Part shown: in pieces, positions 5,585 through 30,329 of the stretch
How positions within the stretch are numbered: position 1 is the stretch's first letter
How the letters are laid out: the number at the start of each line of letters is the position of its first letter
Assembly (NCBI GenBank): GCA_030596605.1
Contig: JAUVJI010000021.1
Location: forward strand, 1-40,413
From: Bacteroidales bacterium
GTDB lineage: Bacteria; Bacteroidota; Bacteroidia; Bacteroidales; JAADJA01
DNA: 40,413 nt
Reading direction: 5' to 3'
Made by a program: the position numbers and the translations under genes
The notes under the pieces: model-generated
Databases searched by the model: none
Seen by the model: the letters and a program-made list of their open reading frames with translations, nothing else
Told to the model about the DNA's origin: nothing

Positions 5585-6820
5585 ATGGCAGAGAATACAA
5601 AAACATTCAGGATGATCGCTAAAACCTTTACCGGTATGGAAGAGGTATTGGCAATGGAATTAACTGATTTAGGAGCTACAGAAGTAAGAACTGTAAAGAG
5701 AGGGGTACAGTTTTATGGAGATAAAAAACTTCTTTACAAAGCTAACTACACTTGCAGAAGCGCTTTACGTATACTTAAACCGATTGCTTCTTTTAAAGCA
5801 ATGAACGAAACTCAGCTATATGATGAGGTTCGCAAAATAGACTGGTCGGAATACCTGGATACGGAGAGGACTTTCTCAATAGATGGGATAACAAGTTATT
5901 CCAATATCACTCATTCAAAATACCTCGCTTTAAAGACAAAAGATGCCATTGCTGACCAGTTTAGGGAAAAGTTTGGTAAAAGGCCAAGTGTAAATAAAGA
6001 TTATCCTGATGTTGCAATTAATGTTCGAATATTTAAAAATGAGGCAACCGTGTCACTTGACAGTTCAGGAGAATCATTGCATAAAAGAGGGTACAGGGTT
6101 GCAACCGGGCCGGCTCCTATGAATGAAGTGCTTGCAGCAGGATTGATATTATTAAGCGGATGGAAAGGAGATACAAATTTTATTGATCCTATGTGTGGAT
6201 CTGGCACGATTCCAATTGAAGCAGCATTGCTTGCAAGAAATATCCCTTCAGGCTATTTCAGGGACGACTATAGCTTTAAACGCTGGAAAGATTTTGACTC
6301 AGATCTTTGGAATGAAATAAAAACTGAAGCCGAAAATGAAATAAAAGAATTTGACAAAAAGATCATCGGCTCCGATTGGTCGGGAAGGATACTGACAGTT
6401 GCAAAAGATAATGTTTCATCAGCAGGATTAAAAAGCACAATAACCCTGAAAACAAGTTTCATTGATGATCTTCAACCAATTGAAGGAGGGGGAATACTGA
6501 TCATGAATCCTCCTTACGGAGAGAGGATAAAAATTGACGATATCATAGAATTATATAAAGGTATTGGTGATGCATTAAAACAAAACTTTATTGGTTATAG
6601 TGCCTGGGTCATCAGTTCCCATCAGGAAGCTTTAAAGTTTGTTGGACTAAGGCCATCAAGGAATATCACTGTTTTTAACGGTCAGCTGGAATGTAAATTT
6701 GCAAAGTTTGAACTATATAGTGGCAGCAAGAAAAATTCAGGAGAAAATAAACAAACAGAAGAGAAGTTCAGACAAAACGAAAAGAATGATTTTGTAAAAC
6801 GAAAACGGAAAAGAATATAA
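5585..6820 (+). CDS. THUMP-domain class I SAM-dependent rRNA methyltransferase (RlmL/YpsC-like)
   Basis: The N-terminal ~155 residues form a ferredoxin-like plus THUMP RNA-binding region, beginning TFTGMEEVLAMEL. The SAM-binding loop DPMCGSGTIPIEAALLA is near residues 201-217, and the catalytic NPPYGERI motif starts at residue 308; N-P-P-Y is the signature of N-methyltransferases acting on exocyclic amines. At 411 residues it matches the stand-alone RlmL-type (23S rRNA G2445 N2) or YpsC family rather than the long RlmKL fusion. The tail is lysine/arginine-rich, which would suit RNA contact. The stop overlaps the pfkA start by one base (TAATG), so the two are almost certainly co-translated. 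Confidence 0.85.
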   Translation: MAENTKTFRMIAKTFTGMEEVLAMELTDLGATEVRTVKRGVQFYGDKKLLYKANYTCRSALRILKPIASFKAMNETQLYDEVRKIDWSEYLDTERTFSIDGITSYSNITHSKYLALKTKDAIADQFREKFGKRPSVNKDYPDVAINVRIFKNEATVSLDSSGESLHKRGYRVATGPAPMNEVLAAGLILLSGWKGDTNFIDPMCGSGTIPIEAALLARNIPSGYFRDDYSFKRWKDFDSDLWNEIKTEAENEIKEFDKKIIGSDWSGRILTVAKDNVSSAGLKSTITLKTSFIDDLQPIEGGGILIMNPPYGERIKIDDIIELYKGIGDALKQNFIGYSAWVISSHQEALKFVGLRPSRNITVFNGQLECKFAKFELYSGSKKNSGENKQTEEKFRQNEKNDFVKRKRKRI

Positions 6821-7800
6821 TGAATACTGTAGAAAAAATTGGAGTTCTGACTTCTGGAGGTGATTCTCCGGGTATGAATGCTTGTATTCGTGCTGTGGTT
6901 CGAACAGGGATTTATCATGGACTTGAAGTATTTGGAATTAGAAACGGATACGATGGTTTGATAAACAATGATATTATTAAACTGGAGAGTTCATCCGTTT
7001 CAAATATAATCCAGCGCGGGGGCACAATATTAAAAACAGCCCGCAGTGAGGAATTTATAACAAAAGAAGGCAGGCAGAAAGCTTATAATAACCTTAAAAA
7101 ATACGGACTTGATGCTATGGTCGTAATTGGGGGAAACGGAACCTTTACAGGTGCCAACATTTTTATCAATGAATTTGATTTTCCCATCATGGGTGCACCC
7201 GGAACTATCGACAATGATTTGTATGGAACTGACAATACTATTGGTTACGATACTGCTGTAAATACGGTTGTTGATGCAGTGGATAAAATCAGGGATACTG
7301 CTGATTCGCATAACAGATTGTTTTTTATTGAAGTGATGGGCAGGGATGCCGGATTTATTGCTTTAAGAAGTGGAATAGCAGGAGGTGCGGAAGATATTCT
7401 TATTCCTGAAACAGTTACCTATATTGATGAATTGGTTGAAATTCTTGAAAAAGGATTCAGGAAAAATAAAAAGTCGGGAGTAATAATAGTTGCTGAAGGA
7501 GATGATGCCGGTGGCGCTTTTGATGTTGCCCGTAAAGTAAAAGAAAAATGTTCGGGTTATGATACAAGAGTGACAATCCTGGGGCATATTCAAAGAGGAG
7601 GCTCTCCCACATCTTTTGACAGAATACTTGCCAGTACTATGGGATACGGTGCTGTTAAAGCATTGCTTGAAGGAAGACGCGGAGAAATGGTTGGTGTCAT
7701 CCATAGGGAATTGGCTTATACACCTTTTGAAAAAGCGATTAAACATCATAAAGAAATAAAAAGGGAATTATTGGAGATGGCCCGGATACTATCTTCATAA
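6820..7800 (+). CDS. pfkA: 6-phosphofructokinase
   Basis: Family A phosphofructokinase, 326 residues, the normal bacterial length. It phosphorylates fructose 6-phosphate, the committing step of glycolysis. Landmarks: nucleotide loop GGDSPGMNA at 13-21; catalytic TIDND at 129-133; substrate loop MGRDAGFIAL; GHIQRGGSPTSFDR near residues 250-263. The ATP/metal loop reads GGNGT (104-108) where most ATP-dependent enzymes have GGDGS/T. Keeping glycine at the fourth position favours ATP over pyrophosphate as donor, but the aspartate-to-asparagine change affects the residue that binds magnesium in E. coli PfkA. It overlaps the methyltransferase gene by one base. Confidence 0.93.
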   Translation: MNTVEKIGVLTSGGDSPGMNACIRAVVRTGIYHGLEVFGIRNGYDGLINNDIIKLESSSVSNIIQRGGTILKTARSEEFITKEGRQKAYNNLKKYGLDAMVVIGGNGTFTGANIFINEFDFPIMGAPGTIDNDLYGTDNTIGYDTAVNTVVDAVDKIRDTADSHNRLFFIEVMGRDAGFIALRSGIAGGAEDILIPETVTYIDELVEILEKGFRKNKKSGVIIVAEGDDAGGAFDVARKVKEKCSGYDTRVTILGHIQRGGSPTSFDRILASTMGYGAVKALLEGRRGEMVGVIHRELAYTPFEKAIKHHKEIKRELLEMARILSS

Positions 7801-7839
7801 CTGCAAAAATTTAAAATTCTTAATTTGAATTGAAGTTAA

Positions 7840-7847
7840 TATTTTTG
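7840..7847 (+). promoter_or_regulatory. Predicted -7 element upstream of the RecQ-ComF gene
   Basis: TATTTTTG fits TAnnTTTG and lies 31 bp before the ATG at 7879. It suggests the helicase gene has its own promoter and does not rely on readthrough from pfkA. A TTTG at 7824-7827 is too close to serve as a standard -33 box. Confidence 0.4.
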
Positions 7848-7878
7848 AACTTAGTGGCATTATTATTAAAGATCCGGC

Positions 7879-9918
7879 ATGACGAGGCATGAAGCAGAAA
7901 TAAAACTAAAAAGAATCTTCGGATTTGATAAGTTTTATGATGAACAGTGGGAAACAATTGATATGCTTCTTCGTGGAAAAAGAATGTTGTTAATTGAAAG
8001 AACAGGCTATGGGAAATCACTTTGTTTTCAATTTCCTGCAACCCAATTTGACGGAATTACCGTAATATTCTCACCTTTAATTGCATTAATGCGTGACCAG
8101 GTTAATAGTTTGAATGAAAAAGGAATTGCCGCAAAACATATAAATTCTGAGCAAACATACGAGGATAATTCACAAGTAATTCAAGATGCAATAAATGGTA
8201 AGATAAAAATACTTTACATAGCCCCAGAAAGGCAGGAAAATCAAGAATGGATTGAAGCAACACGAAAAATGAATTTGTCAATGATTGTAATTGACGAAGC
8301 ACACACAATATCTGTTTGGGGACATGATTTCCGACCTTCCTTTAGAAGAATTATAAACTTAGTGCAATTACTTCCTAAAGACCTACCAATTTTGGCCACC
8401 ACAGCAACAGCCACCAAAAGAGTACAAGCTGATATTGAACAACAAATTTCTGGCAATTTAACCACAATAAGAGGCAATCTGCTACGGGAAAATTTCAATC
8501 TGTTTGTAATTGAAACAAAATCTGAAGATGAAAAACTCCTTTGGCTTGCCGAAAATATAAATAAACTTCCCGGAACAGGCTTGCTTTATACAGGCACAAG
8601 GGTAAACACAGAAATATATGCAAGATGGTTTGATTTTGCAGGCATAAATTCAACCGATTATAATGCCGGCCTTGATGGAGATACGAGAAAAGAGATTGAG
8701 AAAGGTTTGATGAGTAATAAATGGAAATGTGTTGTCTCTACAAATGCTTTAGGTATGGGTATTGATAAGCCGGATATTCGATTTATAATTCATACGCAAA
8801 TACCGGTATCCCCAATTCACTATTATCAGGAAATTGGAAGAGCGGGGCGAGATGGACAAAAAACCTACATTATCCTATTTTACAATTCAAATAAAGATGA
8901 TGATGGTATTCCTGAAGACTACAAATTACCTAAAGCATTTGTTGATGGCGGAAGGCCAAGTATCAAAAAATATCAAATAGTAATCAATGCTTTAAAACAA
9001 GAGCCTCTTGGCGAAAGGCAATTGATGAAAAAAACGAATATGAAGCAAACTCAAATCAGGGTTATAAAAGCAGATTTGATTGAGCAGGGAGTAATAAAAG
9101 AAGTAAAATATGATAGATCAAAAAAATATGAATACCAGTTTAATGCACCAGAATTAAACACAAAAAAATTTGATGAACTGAGAAATACTAAACTTAAAGA
9201 TTTAGATTCAATGTTAGAATATGTATTCACTACTGAACCTCGAATGAAGTTTTTATGTGAGTATCTTGGTGATAATCCCCCAAATAAATTTGATAATTGC
9301 GATAACTCAAAATATAAGAAACGAACTGTACAGTCTGACAAATCAACAATTGAAAAATTAACAGAGTTCAGAGAAACCTATTTCCCTGTACTTAATGTTG
9401 AAAGCAACAATTCAAATATTAAAAATGGAATAGCCTCTTCGTATTATGGGGTTTCAAATGTTGGTACCGTTTTACATCGTTGTAAATATGAAAATGGTGG
9501 CGACTTTCCCGATTTTTTACTAAAACTGACCTTGAAAGCATTTAGAAAAACTTTTGGAAATAAACATTTTGATATGATTGTTTATGTTCCTCCAACAACA
9601 TCGGGTGAATTAGTGAAAAATTTTGCTGAGAAAATTTCATATGTTCTTAAAGTTCCAATTAGTCATAAACTTATAAAACAACGTGAGACTCAACCTCAAA
9701 AAGTTTTTCAAAATGGTTACTTAAAGAGAGATAATGTTTCCGGAGCATTTAATTATACAGCGCCTGATGAAATCAATAACAAGAGTATCTTGCTTGTTGA
9801 TGACATTTTTGATAGTGGTGCGACTATTAAGGAAATAGGTAAATTATTGACTAATTTTGGAGCTAAATCAATTGTTCCATTAGTTATAGCAAGAACAGTT
9901 GGAGGTGATTTAAAATGA
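7879..9918 (+). CDS. RecQ-family DNA helicase fused to a C-terminal ComF-like phosphoribosyltransferase domain
   Basis: The 679-residue protein starts with a complete RecQ helicase core: Walker A RTGYGKS (41-47), DEAH box (139-142) with the RecQ-type continuation SVWGHDFRPSF, ATTATAT (174-180), and motif VI YYQEIGRAGRDG (315-326). The RecQ zinc subdomain is reduced: only C460 and C474 are left of the four expected cysteines. From about residue 495 the sequence becomes ComFC-like: a linker with LHRCKYENGG, the stretch RETQPQKVFQNGYLKRDNVS (602-621), GAF, and the PRPP-loop signature LLVDDIFDSGATI (638-650). So it is predicted to unwind DNA 3' to 5' and to carry a PRTase-fold module whose substrate is unknown; ComF itself acts in DNA uptake. 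A divergent DprA gene follows. This is not an ordinary housekeeping recQ. A competence, repair or defence role is inference. Confidence 0.88.
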   Translation: MTRHEAEIKLKRIFGFDKFYDEQWETIDMLLRGKRMLLIERTGYGKSLCFQFPATQFDGITVIFSPLIALMRDQVNSLNEKGIAAKHINSEQTYEDNSQVIQDAINGKIKILYIAPERQENQEWIEATRKMNLSMIVIDEAHTISVWGHDFRPSFRRIINLVQLLPKDLPILATTATATKRVQADIEQQISGNLTTIRGNLLRENFNLFVIETKSEDEKLLWLAENINKLPGTGLLYTGTRVNTEIYARWFDFAGINSTDYNAGLDGDTRKEIEKGLMSNKWKCVVSTNALGMGIDKPDIRFIIHTQIPVSPIHYYQEIGRAGRDGQKTYIILFYNSNKDDDGIPEDYKLPKAFVDGGRPSIKKYQIVINALKQEPLGERQLMKKTNMKQTQIRVIKADLIEQGVIKEVKYDRSKKYEYQFNAPELNTKKFDELRNTKLKDLDSMLEYVFTTEPRMKFLCEYLGDNPPNKFDNCDNSKYKKRTVQSDKSTIEKLTEFRETYFPVLNVESNNSNIKNGIASSYYGVSNVGTVLHRCKYENGGDFPDFLLKLTLKAFRKTFGNKHFDMIVYVPPTTSGELVKNFAEKISYVLKVPISHKLIKQRETQPQKVFQNGYLKRDNVSGAFNYTAPDEINNKSILLVDDIFDSGATIKEIGKLLTNFGAKSIVPLVIARTVGGDLK

Positions 9919-9992
9919 GTATCAGTTATAAAAATATACATTTAGAAATTGATGATATTGAAAATTTTGGCATTTTTCTTATGCCGGTTTAA
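9915..9992 (+). CDS. Tiny ORF translationally coupled to the RecQ-ComF gene (possible gene remnant)
   Basis: An ATG at 9915 overlaps the helicase stop codon in the classic ATGA arrangement and opens a 25-codon frame (begins MSISYKNIHLEIDD) ending in TAA at 9990-9992. The overlap implies coupled translation, but the product is very short and runs into a dispersed repeat. It could be the 5' stub of a third gene whose remainder was lost when the repeat arrived, or a chance frame. Not recognised. Confidence 0.3.
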   Translation: MSISYKNIHLEIDDIENFGIFLMPV

Positions 9993-9993
9993 A

Positions 9994-10090
9994 CTTTGTG
10001 CAGCTTTGTGCTTTCTTTGTGTAACTTTGTGAAACAGCTATTACACAGAGTATCACAGAGGAGACACATCCCGCACGTGCGGGAACAAAG
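9994..10090 (+). repeat. Intergenic repeat with TTTGTG/CACAGAG arms and a 16-bp palindrome
   Basis: The gap holds several TTTGTG units (as in CTTTGTGTAACTTTGTG), then the roughly complementary CACAGAGTATCACAGAG, then the perfect palindrome TCCCGCACGTGCGGGA at 10069-10084. This layout is that of a dispersed hairpin-forming intergenic repeat. It lies between the helicase gene and the DprA-like gene. Confidence 0.5.
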
Positions 10091-10162
10091 AAAAAAGTGT
10101 TAACTACTTATATTCAAAAATGAAAGATATCTGAGTTTTAAAGTTTATAAAAATGAATTTGT

Positions 10163-11302
10163 ATGAAACAAGAATACGCATACTGGATGGCTTTGGCACA
10201 TCTTCCGAAAATGAGAATTGCAAGGAAGAATGAATTAATAGTTCGATTTTTTGAGGAAGGACAAAGTATTGTTGATTTCTTTCATTGCGAAAAGTCAAAA
10301 TGGCAAAGTCTGTTTTCTTTAAATGAAAATGAAATTGAACTTTTAATAAGTGCAAAAAGTGAGCTTGCAAATTTTTCATTTCTTGTAGAGGACTTATTAG
10401 AGCAAGGTTATGAAATAATTCCCATAACATCTCCTGATTATTCACCCGTAATGAAAGACAACCTGAAGCGGGCTTATTCACCGCCTTTGATTTACACAAA
10501 AGGGAATAAACAGATAATGAAGGAGGATTCGATTGCAATCGTCGGTTCACGTAAAGCAGAGGATATTTCTTTGGAATTTGCAGACAATGTAGCCAAAAAG
10601 GCAAGTAAAGAATACAAAGTTATTGTAAGCGGTTTTGCCAAAGGTGTTGATAAGCAGGCATTGGATTCTGCAATTAAATACAGAGGGCAAAGTATTATAG
10701 TTTTACCCCAGGGAATTACCACATTTAAATCAGGATTTAAAAAGTATTACAAACAAATTATCGAAGGAGACGTTCTTGTTCTCAGTACTTTTCATCCCAA
10801 AGCGCCATGGAGCGTACAACTTGCAATGGGAAGGAATCCGATTATCTATGGTTTAGCCAAAGAAATTTATGTTGCAGAATCAAGTGAAAAAGGTGGAACA
10901 TGGTCCGGTGTTGTTGACGGATTGCGAAAAGGACGAAGTATTTTTGTCAGAACACCGTTGAGTTCCGAAAAGAATGCCAATAATTTATTAATTCAAAAAG
11001 GGGCCATTCCTGTTGACAACCAAGGAAATAAAATTGAAAACTATTCAATATCAGAAATAAAAGAATCTGTTGTTAATGAACCGGCATCTGCATTTGATGA
11101 TATTGATTCAGAAATAATAAAATTATTATCAGTTGGTGAATTTACTTTGAAGGAAATTATCGAAAGGTTAAAAATTGATTGGACTTCAAGAAAACTAATA
11201 AATTATCTCAAACAAAACCAAAGTATTGTGGTCCTGGATAAAAAATCACCGATGAAATTTACCATAAAAACTAAAGAAAATTCACAACAATCATTATTCT
11301 GA
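10163..11302 (+). CDS. Divergent DprA/Smf-like DNA-processing protein
   Basis: A 379-residue protein with the DprA layout: a helical N-terminal part (1-~75), a Rossmann-fold DprA/Smf domain (~85-270) and a winged-helix C-terminus (~312-365). Recognisable motifs are SIAIVGSRKAED (123-134), VSGFAKGVDKQAL (155-167), GRNPIIYGLA (223-232) and EKGGTWSGVVDGL (242-254). DprA binds single-stranded DNA and loads RecA during transformation. These motifs differ from typical DprA (SGLA.GID.AAH; RNRIIAGL), so this is a divergent paralogue, perhaps specialised. It follows the RecQ-ComF gene and precedes priA by 10 bp. No second DprA is in the window. The family call is secure; whether it is the cell's general DprA is not. 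Confidence 0.82.
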   Translation: MKQEYAYWMALAHLPKMRIARKNELIVRFFEEGQSIVDFFHCEKSKWQSLFSLNENEIELLISAKSELANFSFLVEDLLEQGYEIIPITSPDYSPVMKDNLKRAYSPPLIYTKGNKQIMKEDSIAIVGSRKAEDISLEFADNVAKKASKEYKVIVSGFAKGVDKQALDSAIKYRGQSIIVLPQGITTFKSGFKKYYKQIIEGDVLVLSTFHPKAPWSVQLAMGRNPIIYGLAKEIYVAESSEKGGTWSGVVDGLRKGRSIFVRTPLSSEKNANNLLIQKGAIPVDNQGNKIENYSISEIKESVVNEPASAFDDIDSEIIKLLSVGEFTLKEIIERLKIDWTSRKLINYLKQNQSIVVLDKKSPMKFTIKTKENSQQSLF

Positions 11303-11312
11303 TAATAAAATC

Positions 11313-13799
11313 ATGAACCGAACAACCCTTTTTGTTGATGTCATATTACCGCTTCCTGTTCCCGGTTTGTTCACCTACAGGGTGCCGTATGAATTAAATG
11401 ATTCGGTGGCTTGCTGGAAGCGTGTTGTTATTCAGTTTGGCAAAAAGAAAATTTATACAGCCATTATTGTCAATATCCATGAAATACCTCCAAAGAATTA
11501 TGCGGTCAAATATATTCTTTCGGTTCTGGATACGAATCCCATCATGAATCAACTGCAATACAAATTTTGGCAGTGGATTGCTGAATATTATATGTGTGAA
11601 CCCGGAGAGGTAATGAATGTTGCCATTCCAACAGCATTTAAACTTGCGAGTGAATCAAAAATAGTATTAAATCCTGGTTTTGATGGTGATGTAGAAGAAT
11701 TGAATGAAAAGGAGTACCTCGTGGTTGATGCTCTTGATATTCAAAAAAAACTTACCCTTACTGAGGTTGAAAACATCATTGAGCAGAAAAAAGTAATCCC
11801 TGTAATCAAAGGCCTTATTGAAAAAAATATTGTTCTGGTTGAAGAGGAATTAAAGGAGCGCTACAAACCAAAAAAGGAGACTTTTCTGCAGCTTTCGGAA
11901 GAATACCATGATGAAAATAAAATGCAGGAACTTTTTAACCGGCTTGAAAAAAGAGCTTTCAAACAACTTGAGGTTTTGATGGCCTTCATTAGTCTTTCAA
12001 ATTTTGGATCCGGCAAAATCCGGGATGTAAAACAAGCATATTTGACAAAACAACAAAAATTTAGTCCGGGTGTAATAAAATCGCTTGTTGATAAAGGTGT
12101 ATTACTATCATTTTCAAAAACGATCAGTCGGCTTGGGAGTTTTGATCAAACCGCTTTACCTGAAGATATTGAACTCAGTAATGATCAAAGCGAAACTTTA
12201 GATCAGATAAAATCTTCATTCAGCAAAAAAAATGTTGTTTTGTTACATGGTGTTACTTCAAGCGGTAAAACGGAATTGTATATTAAGCTCATCAAAGAAA
12301 ATCTGGAACAAGGCAAACAGGTACTTTATCTTTTGCCCGAAATTGCGCTTACAACGCAGATCATCAACCGGCTCAGAAAGTATTTTGGGAATCAAGTAGG
12401 TGTTTACCATTCGAGGTACAATGAAAATGAACGTGTAGAGATCTGGAATAATGTATTGAATAATAAAATAAATAAATCGAAGTACCAGATCATACTCGGT
12501 CCCAGATCAGCTCTCTATTTACCTTATAGCGACCTCGGACTTGTTATTGTTGATGAAGAGCATGATTATTCTTACAAACAATTTAGTCCGGCGCCAAGAT
12601 ACAATGCCAGGGATGCCGCTATTTATCTTGCCGGTAAACATAATGCAAATGTTCTTTTGGGTTCCGCCACACCATCCATCGAAAGTTACTACAACACCAA
12701 AAATGGCAAATACGAACTGGTTGAACTGAATAAAAGGTTTGGCGATATCCAATTGCCAGAGATTTTAGTGGCGGATATTAAAAAGGAAACCCGCCAAAAA
12801 ACCATGAAGTCGCATTTCTCATCCCTCCTTCTTGATCATGTTTCTGAGGCGCTGAAAAATAAGGAACAGGTTATTTTATTTCAAAACAGGCGTGGTTTCT
12901 CATTGCGTATTGAGTGTGATACATGCAACTGGATGCCCGAATGCAAAAATTGTGATGTAACACTCATTTACCATAAACACAATAATCAATTAAAGTGTCA
13001 TTATTGTGGCTATTCACGACGGGTCCCTGAGCGCTGTGATTCGTGCGGCAGCACACATTTGCACATGAAAGGTTTCGGGACGGAAAAGGTAGAGGACGAA
13101 TTGCAAATTCTATACCCAGATGCCAGGATCAGAAGAATGGATTTGGATACAACAAGGTCAAAAAATGCCTATCAAAGTATTATCAATGATTTCGAAGAAC
13201 AGAGGATTGAAATTCTGGTCGGGACGCAAATGGTAACCAAGGGCCTTGACTTCGATAATGTGAGCATTGTAGGCATCCTGAATGCTGACAATATGTTGAG
13301 CTATCCTGATTTCAGGTCATATGAACGCAGTTTCCAGTTAATGGCACAGGTAAGCGGCAGGGCCGGGCGAAAGAAAAAAAGGGGAAAAGTTATCATTCAA
13401 TCATATAATCCTTACCACTCTGCAATCAGGGATGTTATTGAACATAATTATAAGTCGATGTACAGCAGCCAGATACTGGAAAGGAGGAATTTTAAATACC
13501 CTCCCTTTTACCGTTTAATAAATTTAAGCCTGAAGCATAAAGATCCCCGTCTTTTGAATGAAGCATCGCGAGAGTTTGCAATAATGCTCAGGGAAATATT
13601 AGGCAAAAGGGTTCTGGGCCCTGAATATCCACTTATTTCAAGAATAAAAAACCTCTACATCAAAAATGTTTTGATCAAGCTCGAAAGGGATGAAAAATTA
13701 AAAGATCAGAAAGAAAATATCCTGAAAACAATTGACAGGTTTAAAGGAGAATCTTCTTATAAGTCGGTAAGGGTAATAATTGATGTTGATCCGATTTAA
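11313..13799 (+). CDS. priA: Primosomal protein N' (replication restart helicase)
   Basis: PriA recognises stalled forks and starts primosome assembly to reload the replicative helicase. At 828 residues this is full length for Bacteroidota. It shows the N-terminal 3'-DNA-binding domain (VDVILPLPVPGLFTYRVP), Walker A HGVTSSGKTELY near residues 311-322, the DEEH box near 414, the paired zinc clusters from about residue 535 (CDTC, CKNC, CHYC, CDSC) and the helicase motif VGTQMVTKGLDFDNV. Nothing essential is missing. The ATG is 10 bp after the DprA-like stop, so co-transcription is likely and priA may depend partly on that promoter. Confidence 0.95.
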   Translation: MNRTTLFVDVILPLPVPGLFTYRVPYELNDSVACWKRVVIQFGKKKIYTAIIVNIHEIPPKNYAVKYILSVLDTNPIMNQLQYKFWQWIAEYYMCEPGEVMNVAIPTAFKLASESKIVLNPGFDGDVEELNEKEYLVVDALDIQKKLTLTEVENIIEQKKVIPVIKGLIEKNIVLVEEELKERYKPKKETFLQLSEEYHDENKMQELFNRLEKRAFKQLEVLMAFISLSNFGSGKIRDVKQAYLTKQQKFSPGVIKSLVDKGVLLSFSKTISRLGSFDQTALPEDIELSNDQSETLDQIKSSFSKKNVVLLHGVTSSGKTELYIKLIKENLEQGKQVLYLLPEIALTTQIINRLRKYFGNQVGVYHSRYNENERVEIWNNVLNNKINKSKYQIILGPRSALYLPYSDLGLVIVDEEHDYSYKQFSPAPRYNARDAAIYLAGKHNANVLLGSATPSIESYYNTKNGKYELVELNKRFGDIQLPEILVADIKKETRQKTMKSHFSSLLLDHVSEALKNKEQVILFQNRRGFSLRIECDTCNWMPECKNCDVTLIYHKHNNQLKCHYCGYSRRVPERCDSCGSTHLHMKGFGTEKVEDELQILYPDARIRRMDLDTTRSKNAYQSIINDFEEQRIEILVGTQMVTKGLDFDNVSIVGILNADNMLSYPDFRSYERSFQLMAQVSGRAGRKKKRGKVIIQSYNPYHSAIRDVIEHNYKSMYSSQILERRNFKYPPFYRLINLSLKHKDPRLLNEASREFAIMLREILGKRVLGPEYPLISRIKNLYIKNVLIKLERDEKLKDQKENILKTIDRFKGESSYKSVRVIIDVDPI

Positions 13800-17869: not shown

Positions 17870-17889
17870 CAACTGCCAAATTTGAGGGG

Positions 17890-17897
17890 CAAAAATA
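17890..17897 (-). promoter_or_regulatory. Predicted -7 element for gldF
   Basis: On the minus strand the sequence reads TATTTTTG, fitting TAnnTTTG, 21 bp upstream of the gldF ATG. The -33 region is not clear. Confidence 0.4.
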
Positions 17898-18445
17898 CGT
17901 ATTTTTTATGCTTGCTTTTTGTGAAATATATACGATGATTGAGTGGAGTTATTGTATTTGATCAATATTTATCAGAAAACATTTTTGGCTAAACCCTTAT
18001 GGCAAGTCATGTGATTCGGAGTAAAGCATGGTTGATGTGGCCAACTATTAAAAATGATCTTTAAATTTTAGTAGTTGAAAGCAAGGCACGAGTCTCGCAT
18101 TAGCTGAATCATATTGTGAAGACTTGTGTCAGTTGGGAGCGGGCTGTATATACAAGCAAGGCAGGCGGAGAAATGGAGGGCTTACCTGTGCGGTTGGTCG
18201 GGTGTCTGCCGGTTGAGGCTGGTCAGGGGCTATTTAACATAATTAGGTTATAGGACAGCATAGGTTGTGGCTGACGTTGTGTTGGAGTGGGCTGACTTAT
18301 TTTAGGGACTGTTCCTATAACTACATGTTATGTTACTTAGCTTTGGGATTATCACACAATCTTCAATTGTTTTTTAACTGAAAAATGACGATTACTGATG
18401 GGGAACGTCTGAAGTATGAAGCGTTTTAATTCTTTATACTTTCAT
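17898..18445. other. Gene-free, G-rich intergenic stretch with inverted repeats
   Basis: No convincing coding frame is present in about 550 bp. Unlike its AT-rich surroundings, 18120-18300 is strongly G-rich on the plus strand (GGGAGCGGGCTG, GGCAGGCGGAG, GGTTGGTCGGGTG). Two hairpins are visible: CAACTATTAAAA at 18042-18053 against TTTTAGTAGTTG at 18066-18077 (11/12 pairs), and GTTATAGGACAG at 18247-18258 against CTGTTCCTATAAC at 18309-18321, a 75-nt imperfect palindrome with one bulged base. It may be a cassette junction or non-coding element; function unknown. Confidence 0.4.
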
Positions 18446-18460
18446 GTTAGGCAAAGTTTT
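18446..18460. repeat. Left inverted repeat flanking the nuclease-like gene
   Basis: GTTAGGCAAAGTTTT matches the reverse complement of 19743-19757 at 14 of 15 positions. It overlaps the stop codon of the minus-strand gene. Confidence 0.5.
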
Positions 18461-19718
18461 ATTCCATCTTTTGGATGCCAAATTTGTCAGTATTAAATTC
18501 ACCTATTGATAAATCATCTATGGTTGCAGTAGCAACAATGAGTAACCCTTTAGGAAGATTAAAATCTTCACCATTAGAATTATCTTCTTTTAAATCTTCA
18601 CCAATTTTTATCCATTTATCACTTTCATCAAAAATCTCAAACTCAATTTCAATCTCCGTAAATTGTACATCCCTTGTTATTACATTTTCTATGGCTTTAT
18701 ATACTTCCGGAATAAAAAATCTTAAGTAATACTCTTCCCTCGTTGTGTAATAAATATCCAATTGGTCCATGACTTTCCAACCAGCATTATATGTATTCAT
18801 TTTTAAAGTACTAGTTTTCATGGATATTAGATGAATACTATCTGTTACATGAGGAATAAGATTATTATCCCATTTATAAGATATAATATCTTTAATGGTG
18901 AATGTTTCTTCACCTTCATTATATGAAAATATTAGTTCTGTAAAATCTCCAGGTATTTTATCACCTGCGTCTAGTTTAACCCCAAATTCAACATGCATTA
19001 ATGGAGTAGATTTTATCCAAACAACGGGAATCTCAATGTTTTCATTCCATTTTCTTGATTGTGCATCCTTGAAAGTACATAAGTCAACATTATTTTTTGA
19101 TGCAAATTCAACAACATCTTCAGAAAAACCGCCATTACAAATAATTATACCTTTTGCAACCTTAATGTCTTTTAAAGCAATAATAAAATCCAATATATCC
19201 AAATATTTAGCCTTGTGACTTAAAGGCAACAACTTAAATACCATAAGAATATCATGTCCAAGACTTGTTGTATTAACAGCGATATCAAAGACATGTGATT
19301 TTTCATTGAATTGTGAATTGATAGTGTCATTTAGGTTTAATAAAGAATTTTCATATAAGGTTTCATATATATTCAATACACCTTTTGAATATTCTGTAAG
19401 TAAGTCTTTTGAAATTGAATCACTGTGCTCAGATAGTATCTTTTCAATTATTAAATCAGGAGTTTTATCCTCTTTATTCTCTTCAACATAGTATTTTAGC
19501 AGCTCTTTATTGAAATCCGTAATATGATAGTTTATTGTATTACTATTGCCCTGAATATTTATTGATTTAGGGCTGTTTTGGTTTTCTATTGTCTGAACAT
19601 CGTTTTCTACATCTTGGTTTTTATTGAAAATTCCAAAAACACCAGCAATAATTGCTGCTAGTATAATTGCAAGGAAAGTGATCCATGCTGCCTTTATAGT
19701 TACTGATTTTAGTCCCAT
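18459..19718 (-). CDS. Membrane-anchored protein with a degenerate Mrr-like nuclease domain
   Basis: The 419-residue product has one N-terminal membrane helix (ITFLAIILAAIIAGVFGIF), then SINIQGNSNTINYHI, a motif often found between a membrane helix and an effector domain. Residues ~140-235 look like a restriction-endonuclease-fold (Mrr/PD-(D/E)XK) domain: a possible catalytic aspartate in HVFDIAVN (142-149), then the hallmark helix-strand part KDIKVAKGIIICNGGFSEDV (183-202) and VEFASKNNVDLCTF. At the place of the (D/E)XK strand I read ILMVFK (157-162): the lysine is kept but the acidic residue seems replaced by valine, so catalysis is doubtful. Residues 240-419 are unassigned. The gene is flanked by 15-bp inverted repeats, as if it travels as a cassette. 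Domain assignment is by eye only. Confidence 0.55.
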   Translation of the reverse strand: MGLKSVTIKAAWITFLAIILAAIIAGVFGIFNKNQDVENDVQTIENQNSPKSINIQGNSNTINYHITDFNKELLKYYVEENKEDKTPDLIIEKILSEHSDSISKDLLTEYSKGVLNIYETLYENSLLNLNDTINSQFNEKSHVFDIAVNTTSLGHDILMVFKLLPLSHKAKYLDILDFIIALKDIKVAKGIIICNGGFSEDVVEFASKNNVDLCTFKDAQSRKWNENIEIPVVWIKSTPLMHVEFGVKLDAGDKIPGDFTELIFSYNEGEETFTIKDIISYKWDNNLIPHVTDSIHLISMKTSTLKMNTYNAGWKVMDQLDIYYTTREEYYLRFFIPEVYKAIENVITRDVQFTEIEIEFEIFDESDKWIKIGEDLKEDNSNGEDFNLPKGLLIVATATIDDLSIGEFNTDKFGIQKME

Positions 19719-19742
19719 TTTTTTCTATCTATTTTGCTTTCC

Positions 19743-19757
19743 AAAATTTTGCCTAAC
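19743..19757. repeat. Right inverted repeat flanking the nuclease-like gene
   Basis: AAAATTTTGCCTAAC is the mate of 18446-18460. Read on the minus strand it places GTTAGGC about 30 bp before the ATG, with GCCTAAC just after the stop, the order seen in integron cassettes; a full attC was not found. Confidence 0.5.
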
Positions 19758-19822
19758 TTTTTTTTAATCATACCAAAAGTAAGAAAAACCCAGGATATTT
19801 AGGAAAATATAAATCCTTTAAG

Positions 19823-20107
19823 TTATTTTGATATTTTGAACCTTTTTTGAAGCAGGTGCCTATCTTTTTCCATTAAATTAAACAATGCCTGAATTAGCTT
19901 TTCGTTTGATTTGTTGTTTTGAAGTTGCTTAATGAGCCATCTTTTGAGGATAATTCTTTCTTCGAGGGTGTTTATTAATTGCAGGCAGAGTTCCAAGTCA
20001 TGCTGGCACACGAGGCTGGGCTTCGAGACAGCTCCTAAAGTCGCCTCCTCAGCCTGAGCGGGATTAGATTTGACATTTGGCTGGAGCCGAGTGCCAACAG
20101 GAAACAC
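19823..20107 (-). repeat. Repeat copy A: modular element with a short ORF
   Basis: A 94-codon frame exists here, but its sequence is built from two repeat modules shared with 21377-21688: 19924-19972 (47 of 49 bases identical to 21481-21529; encodes LEERIILKRWLIKQL) and 20020-20057 (34 of 38 identical to 21433-21470; encodes QAEEATLGAVSK). The modules occur in opposite order in the two copies. I treat it as a decayed gene or dispersed repeat, not a functional gene. The protein motif is not recognised. Confidence 0.5.
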
Positions 20108-20185
20108 TTTCTTTTATTCTATAAAATTAAACCCTGATTGTCTACCCCCTAAGTGAAAGGCAATATGTGTTTTGCAAAGGATAAA

Positions 20186-20227
20186 AAACACACCTTGTCC
20201 GCCTATTGACGGACATCTGGTGTGTTT
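20186..20227 (-). terminator. Rho-independent terminator downstream of the lipoprotein gene
   Basis: A strong two-part hairpin: AAACACACC (20186-20194) pairs with GGTGTGTTT (20219-20227), and GTCCG (20197-20201) with CGGAC (20210-20214). On the minus strand it is followed by a run of six T. It lies 58 bp beyond the stop of the minus-strand lipoprotein gene. ATTTTT on the plus strand suggests it may work in both directions. Confidence 0.8.
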
Positions 20228-20285
20228 GATTTTTATAATCGGGCAGAATTAGTCAGTCCTGATCCTTCTGTGGTTTCCCTAACTC

Positions 20286-20852
20286 TCATTTAATATAACC
20301 ATCGGTTGCATAGAAAAAAGTCGTAGGATCACTAAAAACATAATTCATTGTATATGTCCATTTACCAACCATTCCCTTCACGTCACCTTCTTTGCCCGTA
20401 CCATTAGCATCACATATTATCTCAAGTCCACTACCATCTTCGTATAGCGTCAGGTATCCATGCCATGATAATTCCCATTTTCCGCTGCAATTTTCACCAT
20501 CCACAATTATATCAGCCTTTCCCCACATTTTTGCGCTGCCATCCGGGTCGGTCAATGAATTCGCAGTCCAATAAGAGCTTCCGGTAATCATCCCCGCACA
20601 AGAATCAGAATGATCGTACCATTCAACAGTCACCCCCGTTATTAGTGTCTTACCGTTCGGTAAAAAAGTTGTATCACCTCCTATAGGAAGACCAGCAGGC
20701 ATTGATGTACCCGTAAATGGTATTTTAGATGCTTTCAAAAAGGTTTCCTGATCACTTTGGCTTAACTCGGGAGCCAAAGAATTGTCTTTTGAGCAACCAG
20801 AAAAAATAATGGCTAATCCAATAACCAAAAACATTAAGTTTGTACGTTTCAT
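20286..20852 (-). CDS. Putative outer-surface lipoprotein, unknown function
   Basis: A 188-residue protein with a clear lipoprotein signal: MKRTNLMFLVIGLAIIFSGC with lipidation expected at C20, followed by SKDNSLAPE. The mature part has many glycine, tryptophan and tyrosine residues in a strand-like pattern (ADIIVDGENCSGKWELSWHG) and two to three cysteines that could form a disulphide, suggesting a small beta-barrel or beta-sandwich. Not recognised. It has a long AT-rich upstream region and its own strong terminator, so it is a single-gene unit, and lies between the two copies of the modular repeat. Confidence 0.7.
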   Translation of the reverse strand: MKRTNLMFLVIGLAIIFSGCSKDNSLAPELSQSDQETFLKASKIPFTGTSMPAGLPIGGDTTFLPNGKTLITGVTVEWYDHSDSCAGMITGSSYWTANSLTDPDGSAKMWGKADIIVDGENCSGKWELSWHGYLTLYEDGSGLEIICDANGTGKEGDVKGMVGKWTYTMNYVFSDPTTFFYATDGYIK

Positions 20853-21376
20853 AGTTTTCTCTTTTTATTTAATTAGTAATTAGTGATTAATTTCATCTCT
20901 CAGTATCTTAAATACCTCCTTTCATTTTAATGCCTCGAGATTTTTTTATCTCAATTCTAATCTATTTTCTAATCTTCTAATTTGTAAATTTATTTAGCTG
21001 TTGTTTAATTATGATAGTTGTATTAATTGTTTTAGTGAAACACCAAAACCTGGATAGCTTTATGGAATTGACCAGGATAATTTGGTTATTCCTTAAATAT
21101 TGTTTATCTGCTTTTACAAGCATGTATAAAGTTCTTGGTATAAGAATGCCCTTTTAAAAATAAAGAATTATAAATAAAGACTAATGCCTATCAAAAATTA
21201 TACCTGCGTATTAGAGCCCTTAATTTCAGAGATTTCCATAGTTGCAAGCAATAAACTAATTCCTAAAATGGGGAGATATTCCATTTATAGGATTTTTTTT
21301 ACATATATCAGTATTATTATTGAAATATATTACAGATCGGCTGTCATACTGATATTTTGAATCGCTTCTGAAGAGT
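20853..21376. other. AT-rich intergenic region without visible genes
   Basis: About 520 bp with no coding frame I can support. Close to the lipoprotein gene the minus strand has AAAGGAGGT (20914-20922), a perfect Shine-Dalgarno-like sequence, but 60 bp from the ATG and so unlikely to serve it. A small hairpin GAGAT/ATCTC encloses a T-run near 20937-20953. The remainder shows nothing I recognise. Confidence 0.4.
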
Positions 21377-21688
21377 TTACCGGTCTTTGTCTGAGGAATC
21401 AAATAAAAAGACTGGATATAAAATTTCTTTTAGCTTCGACATGGCTCCTAAAGTCGCCTGCTCAGCCTGACTATTATGGAGTTGCTTTATGAGCCATCTT
21501 TTGAGGATAATCCTTTCTTCGAGGGTGTTGATGTTGATTGCTTCTTTTACGTCTTCCAGATAGAGGAACTCACGTTTAATGACGATGTTGTGGTGTGTGT
21601 GTTGATCTCGACAAATCGGTTGGTTACGGAAAAATATACGTTGATTAAGGAGAAATAATTGTATTTGTATGATTACTGCCAGATTCAA
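21377..21688 (-). repeat. Repeat copy B: modular element with a short ORF
   Basis: A 103-codon frame overlies the second copy of the modular repeat (modules at 21433-21470 and 21481-21529). The encoded order is LEERIILKRWLIKQL then QAEQATLGAMSK, the reverse of copy A. The upstream part reads THHNIVIKREFLYLEDVKEA, which may preserve more of an ancestral gene. Not recognised; probably not functional. Confidence 0.45.
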
Positions 21689-21729
21689 ATTTTAAAAGGA
21701 AAATTTAGCAATAATCAAAAATGAATATT

Positions 21730-21737
21730 TAAATTTG
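21730..21737 (+). promoter_or_regulatory. Predicted -7 element for the DHOD-like gene
   Basis: TAAATTTG fits TAnnTTTG and ends 41 bp before the ATG at 21779. No -33 motif at normal spacing. Confidence 0.35.
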
Positions 21738-21778
21738 TTCGCTTAAAGTTCGTATTAAAGAAATCAATAATAAGCAGC

Positions 21779-22765: not shown

Positions 22766-22770
22766 TAACC

Positions 22771-23001
22771 TTATCCATTCATTCTTTTACTTGCATTTAA
22801 TATTGATAATCCAATTATTTCATCTTTTTGGTATCGGATAATAATATCATCATCTGTCATTTCAGTATTATCAGCATTATTCGGTTTTTTGAAATGCAAG
22901 TATAAAATGTCTGCTTCATTATCATAATTCGCCCATACATTCTTATGTTTTAATAGGTAGGGCAAAATGATTTTAGCTTCATCTATGATTATTTTTTCCA
23001 T
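22771..23001 (-). CDS. DUF2283 family protein
   Basis: A 76-residue protein with the DUF2283 signature: NYDNEADILYLHFKK near residues 25-39, then DDDIIIRYQKDEIIGLSILN, a small beta-rich domain. DUF2283 proteins are often encoded beside small toxin-like or DUF4258-like proteins, where they may act as partner or antitoxin; this role is inferred. Its ATG lies within the last codons of the upstream gene (13-bp overlap), so the two are translated together. It ends only 5 bp from the stop of the convergent DHOD-like gene. Confidence 0.75.
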   Translation of the reverse strand: MEKIIIDEAKIILPYLLKHKNVWANYDNEADILYLHFKKPNNADNTEMTDDDIIIRYQKDEIIGLSILNASKRMNG

Positions 23002-23300
23002 ATTAATTCCTTTTTATCCAAGTAATTGATTTTATTTGTAATAAAAGCTGTAATTATGAATCCGTCTGTTATCCCTATTTCTTTATATATAACTACGATG
23101 AACTTCCGTGCTTTATTATCCACTTGACTTACAGCTATTAAATCGTCAAATCTGCCTTTATAAATAAAATTTGGATTTTCTACTGTTTCTAAAATTTCAA
23201 AGTAATAATCGGCAATTTCAGGGTGTCCGGTTGAAATATGATACCATCTCTCTTCCGTTAACCTTACTGGTACTTTATTTATTGAAATTGCAATATCCAT
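22989..23300 (-). CDS. Small toxin-like protein, possibly PBECR/RelE-barnase superfamily
   Basis: This 103-residue protein has the pattern RLTEERWYHISTGHPE (13-28), then TVENPNFIYKGRFDDLIAV, FIVVIYKE and GFIITAFITN: a histidine-bearing helix followed by strands, as in the phage Barnase-EndoU-ColicinE5/D-RelE-like nuclease group and similar DUF families. Members are candidate RNases, so the first gene of the pair may be the toxin and DUF2283 the partner. That is inference from layout. The family call is by eye and could be wrong; a non-toxic DUF is possible. Upstream lies the decayed copy of the DHOD-like 3' end. Confidence 0.5.
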   Translation of the reverse strand: MDIAISINKVPVRLTEERWYHISTGHPEIADYYFEILETVENPNFIYKGRFDDLIAVSQVDNKARKFIVVIYKEIGITDGFIITAFITNKINYLDKKELIWKK

Positions 23301-23712
23301 ACTTCTGGAATAACCATTTCAACAAAGATAATAATTATTTATGATAGATGTTACGGGATTTATTGAAACTACAACCTCAACCGCTTACGAATGTGGTTAA
23401 TTTATGAAGCATTTTGCAGGAATTGAATAGAAGATCGTAATTTATTTTCGACCCTTCACTCCTTTTGTTTAGTGTCTTATTTTTGAAAACTTTGCTTTTT
23501 TGGCGATAAATTTCAAATTTCAATGATCAAATTTCAAATAAATCTCGAAATCCAATCTCAAAATTTCAAACTTGTTTGTAACTTGAGGATCTGAAAAAAT
23601 TGGAATTTATTTGGGTTTTGTTTTTTCCGCGAGTGCTAAAGCTACTCTGCGGAGGCGCTGAGATTTGTCCTTTCCAGTTTATCTGGGCTAGGTGGTTGGG
23701 GGGAGGTGTAAT
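23301..23712. other. Gene-free region with duplicated gene end and dispersed repeats
   Basis: It contains the decayed duplicate of the DHOD-like 3' end (annotated separately), then a run rich in AAATTTCAA units (about 23508-23567, with TCAATGATCAAATTTC as a small palindrome), and then CCGCGAG...CTCTGCGG (about 23627-23656), which can form a hairpin. No coding frame is supported. Confidence 0.5.
23355..23430 (+). pseudogene. Decayed duplicate of the 3' end of the DHOD-like gene
   Basis: The sequence aligns without gaps to 22690-22765. Its last 31 bp (23399-23429) are identical; upstream the match is partial. In the matching frame it reads ETTTSTAYECG, then a TAA, then FMKHFAGIE and TAG, so the copy cannot be functional. 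It marks the outer side of a ~0.6-kb segment carrying the toxin-like/DUF2283 pair. Confidence 0.8.
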
Positions 23713-28889: not shown

Positions 28890-30329
28890 TTATAACCCAA
28901 CTCCATAATACGCTTTTTGACCATTGGGATAAATTCCCTCAATTAATGTTCCTCCATGTTTACCCTCAAGTATAAACTTTAAATCATCAACTGATTTTAC
29001 CAATTCTTTATCAACAGATATAATAATAAATCCTTCTCTCACCCCTGAGCTCTTAAATTTGCCATCTCTAAGGTCAATAATTTTTAATCCGCTACTAATA
29101 TTTAATTTATCCAAATCTTCTTGAGGTAATGCTTCGAAAGTTGCACCCAGAATTTCGATCTTATCCTTTTTAACAATATCTGTGTTGCCACTTCTATTTC
29201 TCAATGTGACTTTAAATTCCTTCAAATTCTCATCCCTCATTATATACACTTGTACTTCGTCACCCGGCCTTTGCGTTCCAATGGTTTCAAGTAAGGAAGA
29301 TTTAGAATTAATATCCGTGCTATTTACCCTCACAATAACATCTCCCTGCTTAATGCCAGCATCATCAGCAGCACCGTTATCCAAAACTTCAACAACATAT
29401 ACTCCTTTAATTTCCTTTAGTCCCTTTTCATTTGCAAACTCACTGTCAATTTCTCTGAACGAAATGCCCAAATAAGCCCGCTGAATTTCACCAAAATTCA
29501 AAATATCATTCATTACTTTTTTTACAATATTGACAGGAATGGCAAATGAGTAACCGGTATACGAACCGGTATTAGATGCAATTGCAGCATTGATCCCAAT
29601 AAGTTCTCCTTCAGTATTGACCAAGGCACCACCACTATTTCCCCTGTTTACTACTGCATCAGTTTGGATAAAAGATTCTATGGCGGATACTTTGCCCAGG
29701 ATATTGATATTTCTTGCTTTTGCACTAACGATTCCGGCAGTTACAGTAGATGTAAGATTAAATGGATTTCCAACAGCAAGTACCCATTCACCTACTTTAA
29801 CCTCATCGGAATTACCATATGTAATAAATGGCAAATTTTCGACATCTATCTTTACTAAAGCAAGGTCGGTTGTGGGATCAGTACCTATAACAATGGCTTC
29901 AAAAGATCTTCTGTCATTTAATGTTATTTCCAATTTGCTGGCTTGCTGTACAACATGATTATTAGTAACAATATAGCCATCGGAAGAAATAATCACACCA
30001 GATCCTGAGGCAACAACCGGCGCATTGTAACGGTATTGATGGCCTCCAAAGAAATCATTAAACAAATCAAAGAAATCATTGTAAACTTGATTCCTTTGTT
30101 GTAATTCTGACTTGATATGAACGACAGCATGAACAGTTACATCAGCCGCATCTACAAAATCAGGCCCGATTACCGCTGAACGAGGAGTGTAATTTGTTTG
30201 ATGAATAGGCAAATTGTTGTTTTCAGAAATCTCTTGTTGAGTTTCTTTTTTATCAATTGACCTGTAAACGACTGCGAAAATTGCTGCACCTAATAAGGCT
30301 GCCAGAAAAAAACTAAAAAATCTTTTCAT
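28890..30329 (-). CDS. Do-family periplasmic serine protease (HtrA/DegP-like)
   Basis: A 479-residue envelope quality-control protease with an N-terminal signal or anchor segment (FFSFFLAALLGAAIFAVVY), a trypsin-like domain with catalytic triad H125 (TNNHVV), D155 (TDLALVK) and S232 (GNSGGAL), and two PDZ domains from about residues 275 and 385 onward. Such enzymes degrade or refold misfolded periplasmic proteins and form trimers or larger cages. Length and layout match DegP/DegQ-type proteins of Bacteroidota; I do not choose between the two names. It lies upstream of rpoD on the same strand, divergent from dapF. Confidence 0.94.
   Translation of the reverse strand: MKRFFSFFLAALLGAAIFAVVYRSIDKKETQQEISENNNLPIHQTNYTPRSAVIGPDFVDAADVTVHAVVHIKSELQQRNQVYNDFFDLFNDFFGGHQYRYNAPVVASGSGVIISSDGYIVTNNHVVQQASKLEITLNDRRSFEAIVIGTDPTTDLALVKIDVENLPFITYGNSDEVKVGEWVLAVGNPFNLTSTVTAGIVSAKARNINILGKVSAIESFIQTDAVVNRGNSGGALVNTEGELIGINAAIASNTGSYTGYSFAIPVNIVKKVMNDILNFGEIQRAYLGISFREIDSEFANEKGLKEIKGVYVVEVLDNGAADDAGIKQGDVIVRVNSTDINSKSSLLETIGTQRPGDEVQVYIMRDENLKEFKVTLRNRSGNTDIVKKDKIEILGATFEALPQEDLDKLNISSGLKIIDLRDGKFKSSGVREGFIIISVDKELVKSVDDLKFILEGKHGGTLIEGIYPNGQKAYYGVGL

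Follow-up and report, generated by a model that had tools for sequence, protein, structure and literature searches.

A PsyrTA/RqlHI-type gene pair between pfkA and priA in a Bacteroidales genome

A 40,413-nucleotide contig from a Bacteroidales bacterium (GenBank assembly GCA_030596605.1, contig JAUVJI010000021.1; the whole stretch analysed, hereafter the window) carries a gene that joins a RecQ-like DNA helicase core to a phosphoribosyltransferase (PRTase) domain, followed by a gene for a DprA-like protein. This locus raises the question of whether the two genes form a module of their own kind or belong to a system already described. An earlier note, made from the sequence, had correctly placed both open reading frames (ORFs), with priA third in order on the same strand, and knew of no named system with such a composition. 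We found that the pair is a Bacteroidota copy of PsyrTA (alias RqlHI), a toxin-antitoxin pair already on record and a candidate for anti-phage defence, whose DprA-like protein restrains a toxic helicase-PRTase. The absence of a name was thus mistaken, as shown by the PADLOC PsyrT and PsyrA matches and by the published descriptions (PMC4670107, PMC9122126). The features on which the argument rests are as follows, with the two proteins abbreviated T and A.

7879..9918, + strand: psyrT/rqlH-like toxin gene (T), RecQ-like helicase core and C-terminal PRTase, 679 amino acids (aa) (PADLOC, Pfam, AlphaFold2)
9397..9915, + strand: C-terminal PRTase domain of T, presumed toxic part, residues 507-679 (Pfam Pribosyltran at 582-665 and comF model; the left edge is a choice)
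9799..9819, + strand: phosphoribosyl pyrophosphate (PRPP) loop DDIFDSG of T, residues 641-647 (motif in T)
10163..11302, + strand: psyrA/rqlI-like antitoxin gene (A), 379 aa, with an N-terminal helical part, a DprA Rossmann core (nt 10403-11014) and a predicted C-terminal winged helix (PADLOC, Pfam, AlphaFold2)

Architecture and identity of the two proteins

T matched the PADLOC PsyrT model with 878.3 bits (residues 3-677 on model positions 5-688 of 689), and A matched PsyrA with 254.4 bits (residues 6-367 on positions 9-395 of 398). The likeness to PsyrTA (PMC8790059, PMC9122126) therefore extends over nearly the full length of both proteins, whose genes are adjacent and on one strand; this copy differs in a 244-bp gap between T and A that holds a repeat-bearing insert, and in its incomplete set of zinc-binding cysteines. 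With RqlHI (PMC4670107), the pair shares a RecQ-like helicase with a C-terminal PRTase, a downstream protein of DprA homology and, judged from its motif, an equivalent aspartate in the PRTase. Experiments exist for the E. coli proteins, whereas this copy is known from sequence, and the two were compared without an alignment. The profile scores exclude a chance likeness, as does the alignment of T with its homologues (34 proteins, that of the window included).

Pfam placed DEAD at residues 22-183 of T, Helicase_C at 228-326 and Pribosyltran at 582-665 (36.4 bits; cut-off 26.3). A RecQ core and a ComFC-type domain are therefore joined in one polypeptide, as the earlier note had read, and the PRPP loop, starting at residue 641, lies within the segment it had marked (638-650). 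The NCBIfam comF model aligned with residues 528-672 at 40.4 bits, below its cut-off of 233.55. T shares its core with RecQ helicases and passed the cut-off of the RecQ-family subfamily model TIGR00614 (316.5 versus 219.8 bits, residues 10-337), the sole NCBIfam model to do so among the matches listed (25 of 30 families). In contrast to RecQ itself, T fell below the equivalog cut-off of TIGR01389 (338.7-350.8 versus 640.2 bits), carries a C-terminal PRTase, and retains only C460 and C474 of the four-cysteine zinc site (RecQ_Zn_bind, 21.5 bits; cut-off 25). More of these cysteines are kept in other aligned T proteins, L007, L039 and L040 among them (L numbers denote homologous loci).

Key motif residues are fully conserved: all 34 of 34 aligned T proteins share Walker A K46, the DEAH-box residues D139, E140 and H142, and, in the PRPP loop, D641, D645 and S646. 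Matched by motif, D645 appears to be the counterpart of D663 in RqlH, a protein outside the alignment. The AlphaFold2 model of T had a mean pLDDT of 88.9, and the PDB matches listed for it were RecQ-family helicase cores, mostly over ~470-520 alignment columns. The PRTase domain alone gave nine weak matches among PDB sequences (best E 0.0048). The T proteins of L039, L040, L041 and L042, from Dehalococcoidia and KSB1 metagenome-assembled genomes, have longer C termini, as judged from ORF lengths (L039, L040 and L042 were also aligned), and the extension in L039 terminates in an HRDC domain.

The label "divergent DprA" that A had been given is fair, because A passed the Pfam PF02481 cut-off (135 versus 29.6 bits, residues 81-284) but fell below that of the NCBIfam DprA equivalog TIGR00732 (107.3 versus 191.15 bits). 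The AlphaFold2 model of A (mean pLDDT 88.4) resembled ordinary DprA structures such as 3uqz and the ShosA structure 8zva about equally (E 3e-17 to 6e-17), and a sequence profile also matched A to ShosA 9vzo. At its C terminus, where a helix-turn-helix region would be expected of a PsyrTA/RqlHI partner and Pfam gave no match, the model shows helices at 314-324, 329-336 and 342-351 and two short strands.

Two other named systems were considered for the pair. ShosTA likewise combines a PRTase toxin with a DprA-like antitoxin, and A matched the PADLOC ShosA model (107.3 bits) as well as the ShosA fold. However, a short, helicase-free toxin would be expected there; the ShosT model spans 237 positions and matched residues 563-674 of T, a partial match from which we infer that ShosT lacks a helicase, whereas T has 679 aa and a helicase core. 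We therefore rejected membership in ShosTA. The Dpd system was rejected as well: several PADLOC DpdF models matched T, mostly across the helicase part, and NCBIfam DpdF (NF041063) reached 172.1 bits against a cut-off of 550, over residues 42-337 only.

Pairing, spread and the gap between the genes

We collected homologous loci by scanning genome contigs with T, a scan that catches close relatives only and yielded 38 loci. A homologue of A lay downstream on the same strand in 38/38, and A scored at least 257 bits against the A gene of every one, some from other phyla. In 37 of these loci the two genes are separated by -64 to +15 nt; in L048 another gene intervenes. This gene (L048 10013-11611) encodes 532 aa and overlaps A by 4 nt, and the C-terminal part of its product is PRTase-like, matching PsyrT 515-687 (38 bits) and ShosT (31 bits). 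L048 is possibly a three-gene variant that would carry two PRTases. Relatives of its middle gene were found in 3/395 genomes at 1e-20, over the PRTase part only.

Full-length T (>700 bits) was present in 6/60 genomes, its own included; the next matches were RecQ-like, reached at most 255 bits and covered the helicase part only. Among the five other genomes with full-length T, A was adjacent in four, the exception being the locus L008. Within the genus, 2/17 genomes (again including its own) contain full-length T, most of these assemblies being incomplete (65-97%). In a phylum-wide sample of 395 genomes, the own genome among them, we set E-value ceilings of 1e-120 (T) and 1e-40 (A) and scored the best three or four candidates per genome, so that all counts are lower bounds. 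T was found in at least 10 genomes and A in at least 11; the genes are adjacent in at least nine and on two contigs in G082, where T is at a contig end (G numbers denote genomes). Among the candidates scored, G408 has A without T and no genome has T alone. PsyrTA is thus patchily spread in both the genus and the phylum sample. No plasmid matched T at 1e-100, and distant matches to A occurred in 11/50,697 phage records at 1e-10, none reaching 80% coverage.

The proposal of a self-contained two-gene module with a recurring DprA-like partner is well supported by these loci and by the phylum sample. It also stands up to the outcomes that would have counted against it, as the DprA-like neighbour recurs and only part of the clade has the fusion. 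The genome contains, in addition, a separate RecQ above the recQ cut-off (667.7 bits), a further RecQ-like gene (457 bits), another DprA (252.6 bits), against which A scored 38.6 bits, and a comF-like gene at 100 bits, which is under the comF cut-off (as a control, 2/14 genomes reach it). The pair is therefore extra to the housekeeping set.

The spacing of the window copy is exceptional. Its T-A gap of 244 bp is unique among the adjacent pairs compared, and ~236 bp of it are missing in the five closest relatives (L015, L016, L032, L033 and L050), which align on both sides; three of them were realigned. Within its own genome, segments of the insert have matches at 40 scored places, the insert itself included (of 104 first-look candidates), and these fall mostly within insert positions 76-150. 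The repeat is of the CTTTGTG/CACAGAG type, with an imperfect inverted pair inside the window copy.

9917..10160, no strand: ~236-bp insert between T and A with a dispersed repeat (core ~9994-10068), edges approximate (relatives' alignment, own-genome matches)
7840..7847, + strand: possible Bacteroidota-type promoter box TATTTTTG, 31 bp 5' of the T start codon (pattern match only)
10022..10029, + strand: possible second promoter box TAACTTTG in the insert, 5' of A (pattern match only; poor spacing to the upstream TTTG)

Both boxes follow the pattern TAnnTTTG, which we take to be a Bacteroidota-type promoter motif and which occurs 23 times on the + strand of the window. The box in the insert might conceivably serve as a promoter of A, but this is a guess. 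A scan of 7600-11500 for sigma-70 promoters gave 18 sites, no excess over shuffled sequences (16.4 +/- 4.3), and the 78-bp pfkA-T interval held none of them; a terminator scan likewise gave no excess above shuffles. The case for the promoter that the earlier note had predicted for the pair is thus weak, with the box at 7840 in its favor and the lack of sigma-70 sites between pfkA and T against it.

Proposed mode of action and alternative explanations

The PsyrTA system is reportedly credited to Sberro et al. 2013. For RqlHI from extraintestinal E. coli, Russell and Mulvey (2015; PMC4670107) describe a PRTase that becomes genotoxic when the DprA-like RqlI is missing. RqlH toxicity requires the PRTase, and RqlI both counters and binds RqlH; co-precipitation of RqlI is lost once the PRTase domain is removed. 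When D663 of RqlH, in the motif DIVD, was changed, growth was no longer inhibited and SOS no longer induced, and the loss of viable counts that remained was only modest (PMC4670107). The antitoxins of shosTA, psyrTA (printed syrTA) and rqlHI are described as DprA homologues, and a DprA-PRTase pair confers protection from phages T7 and lambda (PMC9122126). According to a review, ShosT is both a PRTase and a pyrophosphatase and disturbs purine pools, ShosA binds DNA, and Gp0.7 of T7 is the trigger (PMC12593503).

What we observed here is the architecture, the conserved motifs, the repeated pairing, the patchy distribution and the site of insertion; the published relatives would add that toxicity needs the PRTase and that the DprA-like partner binds and counteracts the toxin. 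By analogy, T would join a RecQ-type DNA helicase to a PRPP-using domain, and A would bind T (its PRTase domain is the probable site) and keep it harmless. If the balance were upset, by loss of the antitoxin or by sensing of phage or DNA damage, the PRTase would act and cause DNA stress, which would stop the cell and could abort infection. Presumably this copy is active, and its PRTase would act either on nucleotide pools, as the review has it for ShosT, or on DNA.

We estimate a probability of roughly 0.9 that the pair represents a toxin-antitoxin module of the PsyrTA/RqlHI kind whose acquisition placed it between pfkA and priA. This figure refers mainly to PsyrTA membership and the toxin-antitoxin mode of action, and two of the three alternatives below overlap with it. 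Several observations weigh against this reading. On its own, the RqlH PRTase showed no toxicity, and mutants with a dead helicase increased SOS and lowered viable counts, so that regulation of RqlH goes beyond a simple toxin plus brake (PMC4670107). In the same study, no fitness loss was found upon deletion of rqlHI, and rqlH lacked a detectable rqlI in 55.3% of the strains surveyed, including nearly all Gram-positives. In L008, T is followed by an SNF2-family helicase, with no A in the 1.5-kb flanks; together with the many surveyed strains that have rqlH alone, this locus indicates that not every toxin gene is accompanied by an antitoxin. For PsyrTA of E. coli NILS69, an expression assay detected no protective activity, and its strain had a growth defect (PMC12409345). 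Finally, the 244-bp gap of the window copy is unusual and may alter the dosage of A.

The best surviving alternative, which we nevertheless consider unlikely, overlaps with the toxin-antitoxin reading: RecQ-like unwinding and DprA-like handling of single-stranded DNA would serve the host as a DNA-maintenance complex, and toxicity would be a by-product of losing A, in line with Russell and Mulvey's cooperative model. Such a beneficial cooperative function has been proposed (PMC4670107), and the helicase motifs are invariant in the T alignment; however, the system is patchily present (2/17 in the genus, at least 10/395 in the phylum sample), and the same genome has another RecQ and DprA. Somewhat less probable still, and compatible with the toxin-antitoxin reading, is that the insert uncoupled A from T in a decaying copy on its way out. 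The absence of the insert from the five closest relatives is in keeping with this, as is the split of T over several ORFs in 2/38 other loci (L033 and L050), but both ORFs of the window are full length and keep the invariant motifs. Very improbable is a natural-transformation module whose ComFC-like and DprA-like parts handle incoming single-stranded DNA: the domain names suggest it, and a PRTase-helicase fusion and DprA have been linked to DNA uptake or an invasive-DNA response (PMC5512222), but it is disfavoured by the separate comF-like, DprA and RecQ genes of the genome, by the failure of A to reach the DprA cut-off (107 of 191 bits) and by the antitoxin models PsyrA and ShosA among the relatives of A, though ordinary DprA structures match about equally. 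Of the two roles that the earlier note had offered, an anti-invader function agrees with the published idea for the PsyrTA/RqlHI family, whereas handling of incoming DNA has no support here beyond these domain names.

The pfkA-priA site and its neighborhood

The pair lies between two host genes that are outside the system; upstream of T on the same strand are a gene for an RlmL-like methyltransferase and pfkA, and downstream of A is priA.

6820..7800, + strand: pfkA, left host flank (TIGR02482, 429 bits, above cut-off)
11313..13799, + strand: priA, right host flank (TIGR00595, 593 bits, above cut-off)

From the coding end of pfkA to the start codon of priA, the window measures 3,515 bp. The two genes share a contig in 13/17 same-genus genomes, and in all 12 others of these, priA follows pfkA without an intervening PsyrTA. 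The gap is 4-100 bp in five relatives (G012, G010, G014, G006 and G002; in G002, which is outside the junction-gap table, it is 11 bp and pfkA is partial at a contig end) and 537-1,548 bp in seven, six of which hold other cargo:

G003: NTP_transf_2 and HEPN
G005: a similar pair, HEPN by Pfam and the partner by PADLOC PDC-S09 only
G016: an 84-aa PIN ORF
G011: SLFN_AlbA_2
G007: 23S_rRNA_IVP
G004: DUF559
G013: ORFs of 40 and 41 aa only; by eye, the apparent start of the G003 nucleotidyltransferase gene

In the remaining genomes, pfkA and priA are on separate contigs (G008 and G015), or priA gave no match and pfkA-family matches were weak (G001 and G009). G005 has a PsyrTA of its own, on another contig away from pfkA and priA. 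The G+C content of T (33.0%) and A (33.9%) is lower than that of pfkA (39.1%), priA (37.8%) and the window (35.2%), which fits acquisition but is not proof of it.

Gaps above 500 bp were found at 8/12 pfkA-priA junctions versus 11/71 at twelve other junctions of the block (one-sided Fisher p 0.0005). One caveat is that this comparison was picked post hoc among related genomes, in which the cargo of G003, G005 and G013 may be one event, and that the DUF5687-w5175 junction is likewise long (4/8). A hotspot at this site is therefore a lead rather than a result. Tentatively, and with more doubt than belief, pfkA-priA may be a docking site in this genus where small toxin-antitoxin or nuclease cassettes take each other's place; the gaps that were read contain no integrase gene. 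PsyrTA would be one tenant, and here a dispersed repeat would have split T from A, perhaps giving A its own promoter.

No defence island was seen around the pair, with only 13 other window ORFs (ten plus three) scanned by PADLOC. Among the ten, a 479-aa ORF (28890-30329, - strand) alone had matches, partial ones to four families at no more than 55 bits; two RT-Protease_XI models align through their C-terminal part with its residues 103-274, probably because of a shared protease domain only. The three other ORFs scanned gave no PADLOC match. We also surveyed the flanks of the 38 loci (124 ORFs of at least 130 aa, at most two per side; six ORFs above 900 aa were excluded) and found some strong PADLOC matches, such as RT-TIR_XII, PtuA, AbiEi and type II enzymes, beside housekeeping genes. 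The survey counted families rather than members matched and had no control set, and we claim no defence enrichment from it.

Two further gaps in the window are longer than in relatives. Positions 17873-21778, between gldF and a dihydroorotate-dehydrogenase-like gene, span 3.9 kb (210-294 bp in four relatives) and contain an ORF with a sub-threshold Mrr_cat match (18459-19718, - strand). At 22766-23712 the gap is 953 bp by the measure of the junction-gap table (53-74 bp in four relatives), and a 103-aa ORF at 22989-23300 (- strand) has a weak likeness to PBECR2, under the cut-off.

PsyrTA in Bacteroidota is not new, because the system had been predicted in a Bacteroides strain (PMC12135933). 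The pair itself is ordinary, and its location is mildly interesting. Its identification removes a false lead, in that a RecQ-ComF-like fusion with a DprA already carries a system name. What remains useful is twofold: a set of filled and unfilled sites for a single PsyrTA copy, with which acquisition without a visible mobile element becomes testable, and a natural example of toxin and antitoxin genes that break with their customary tight arrangement.

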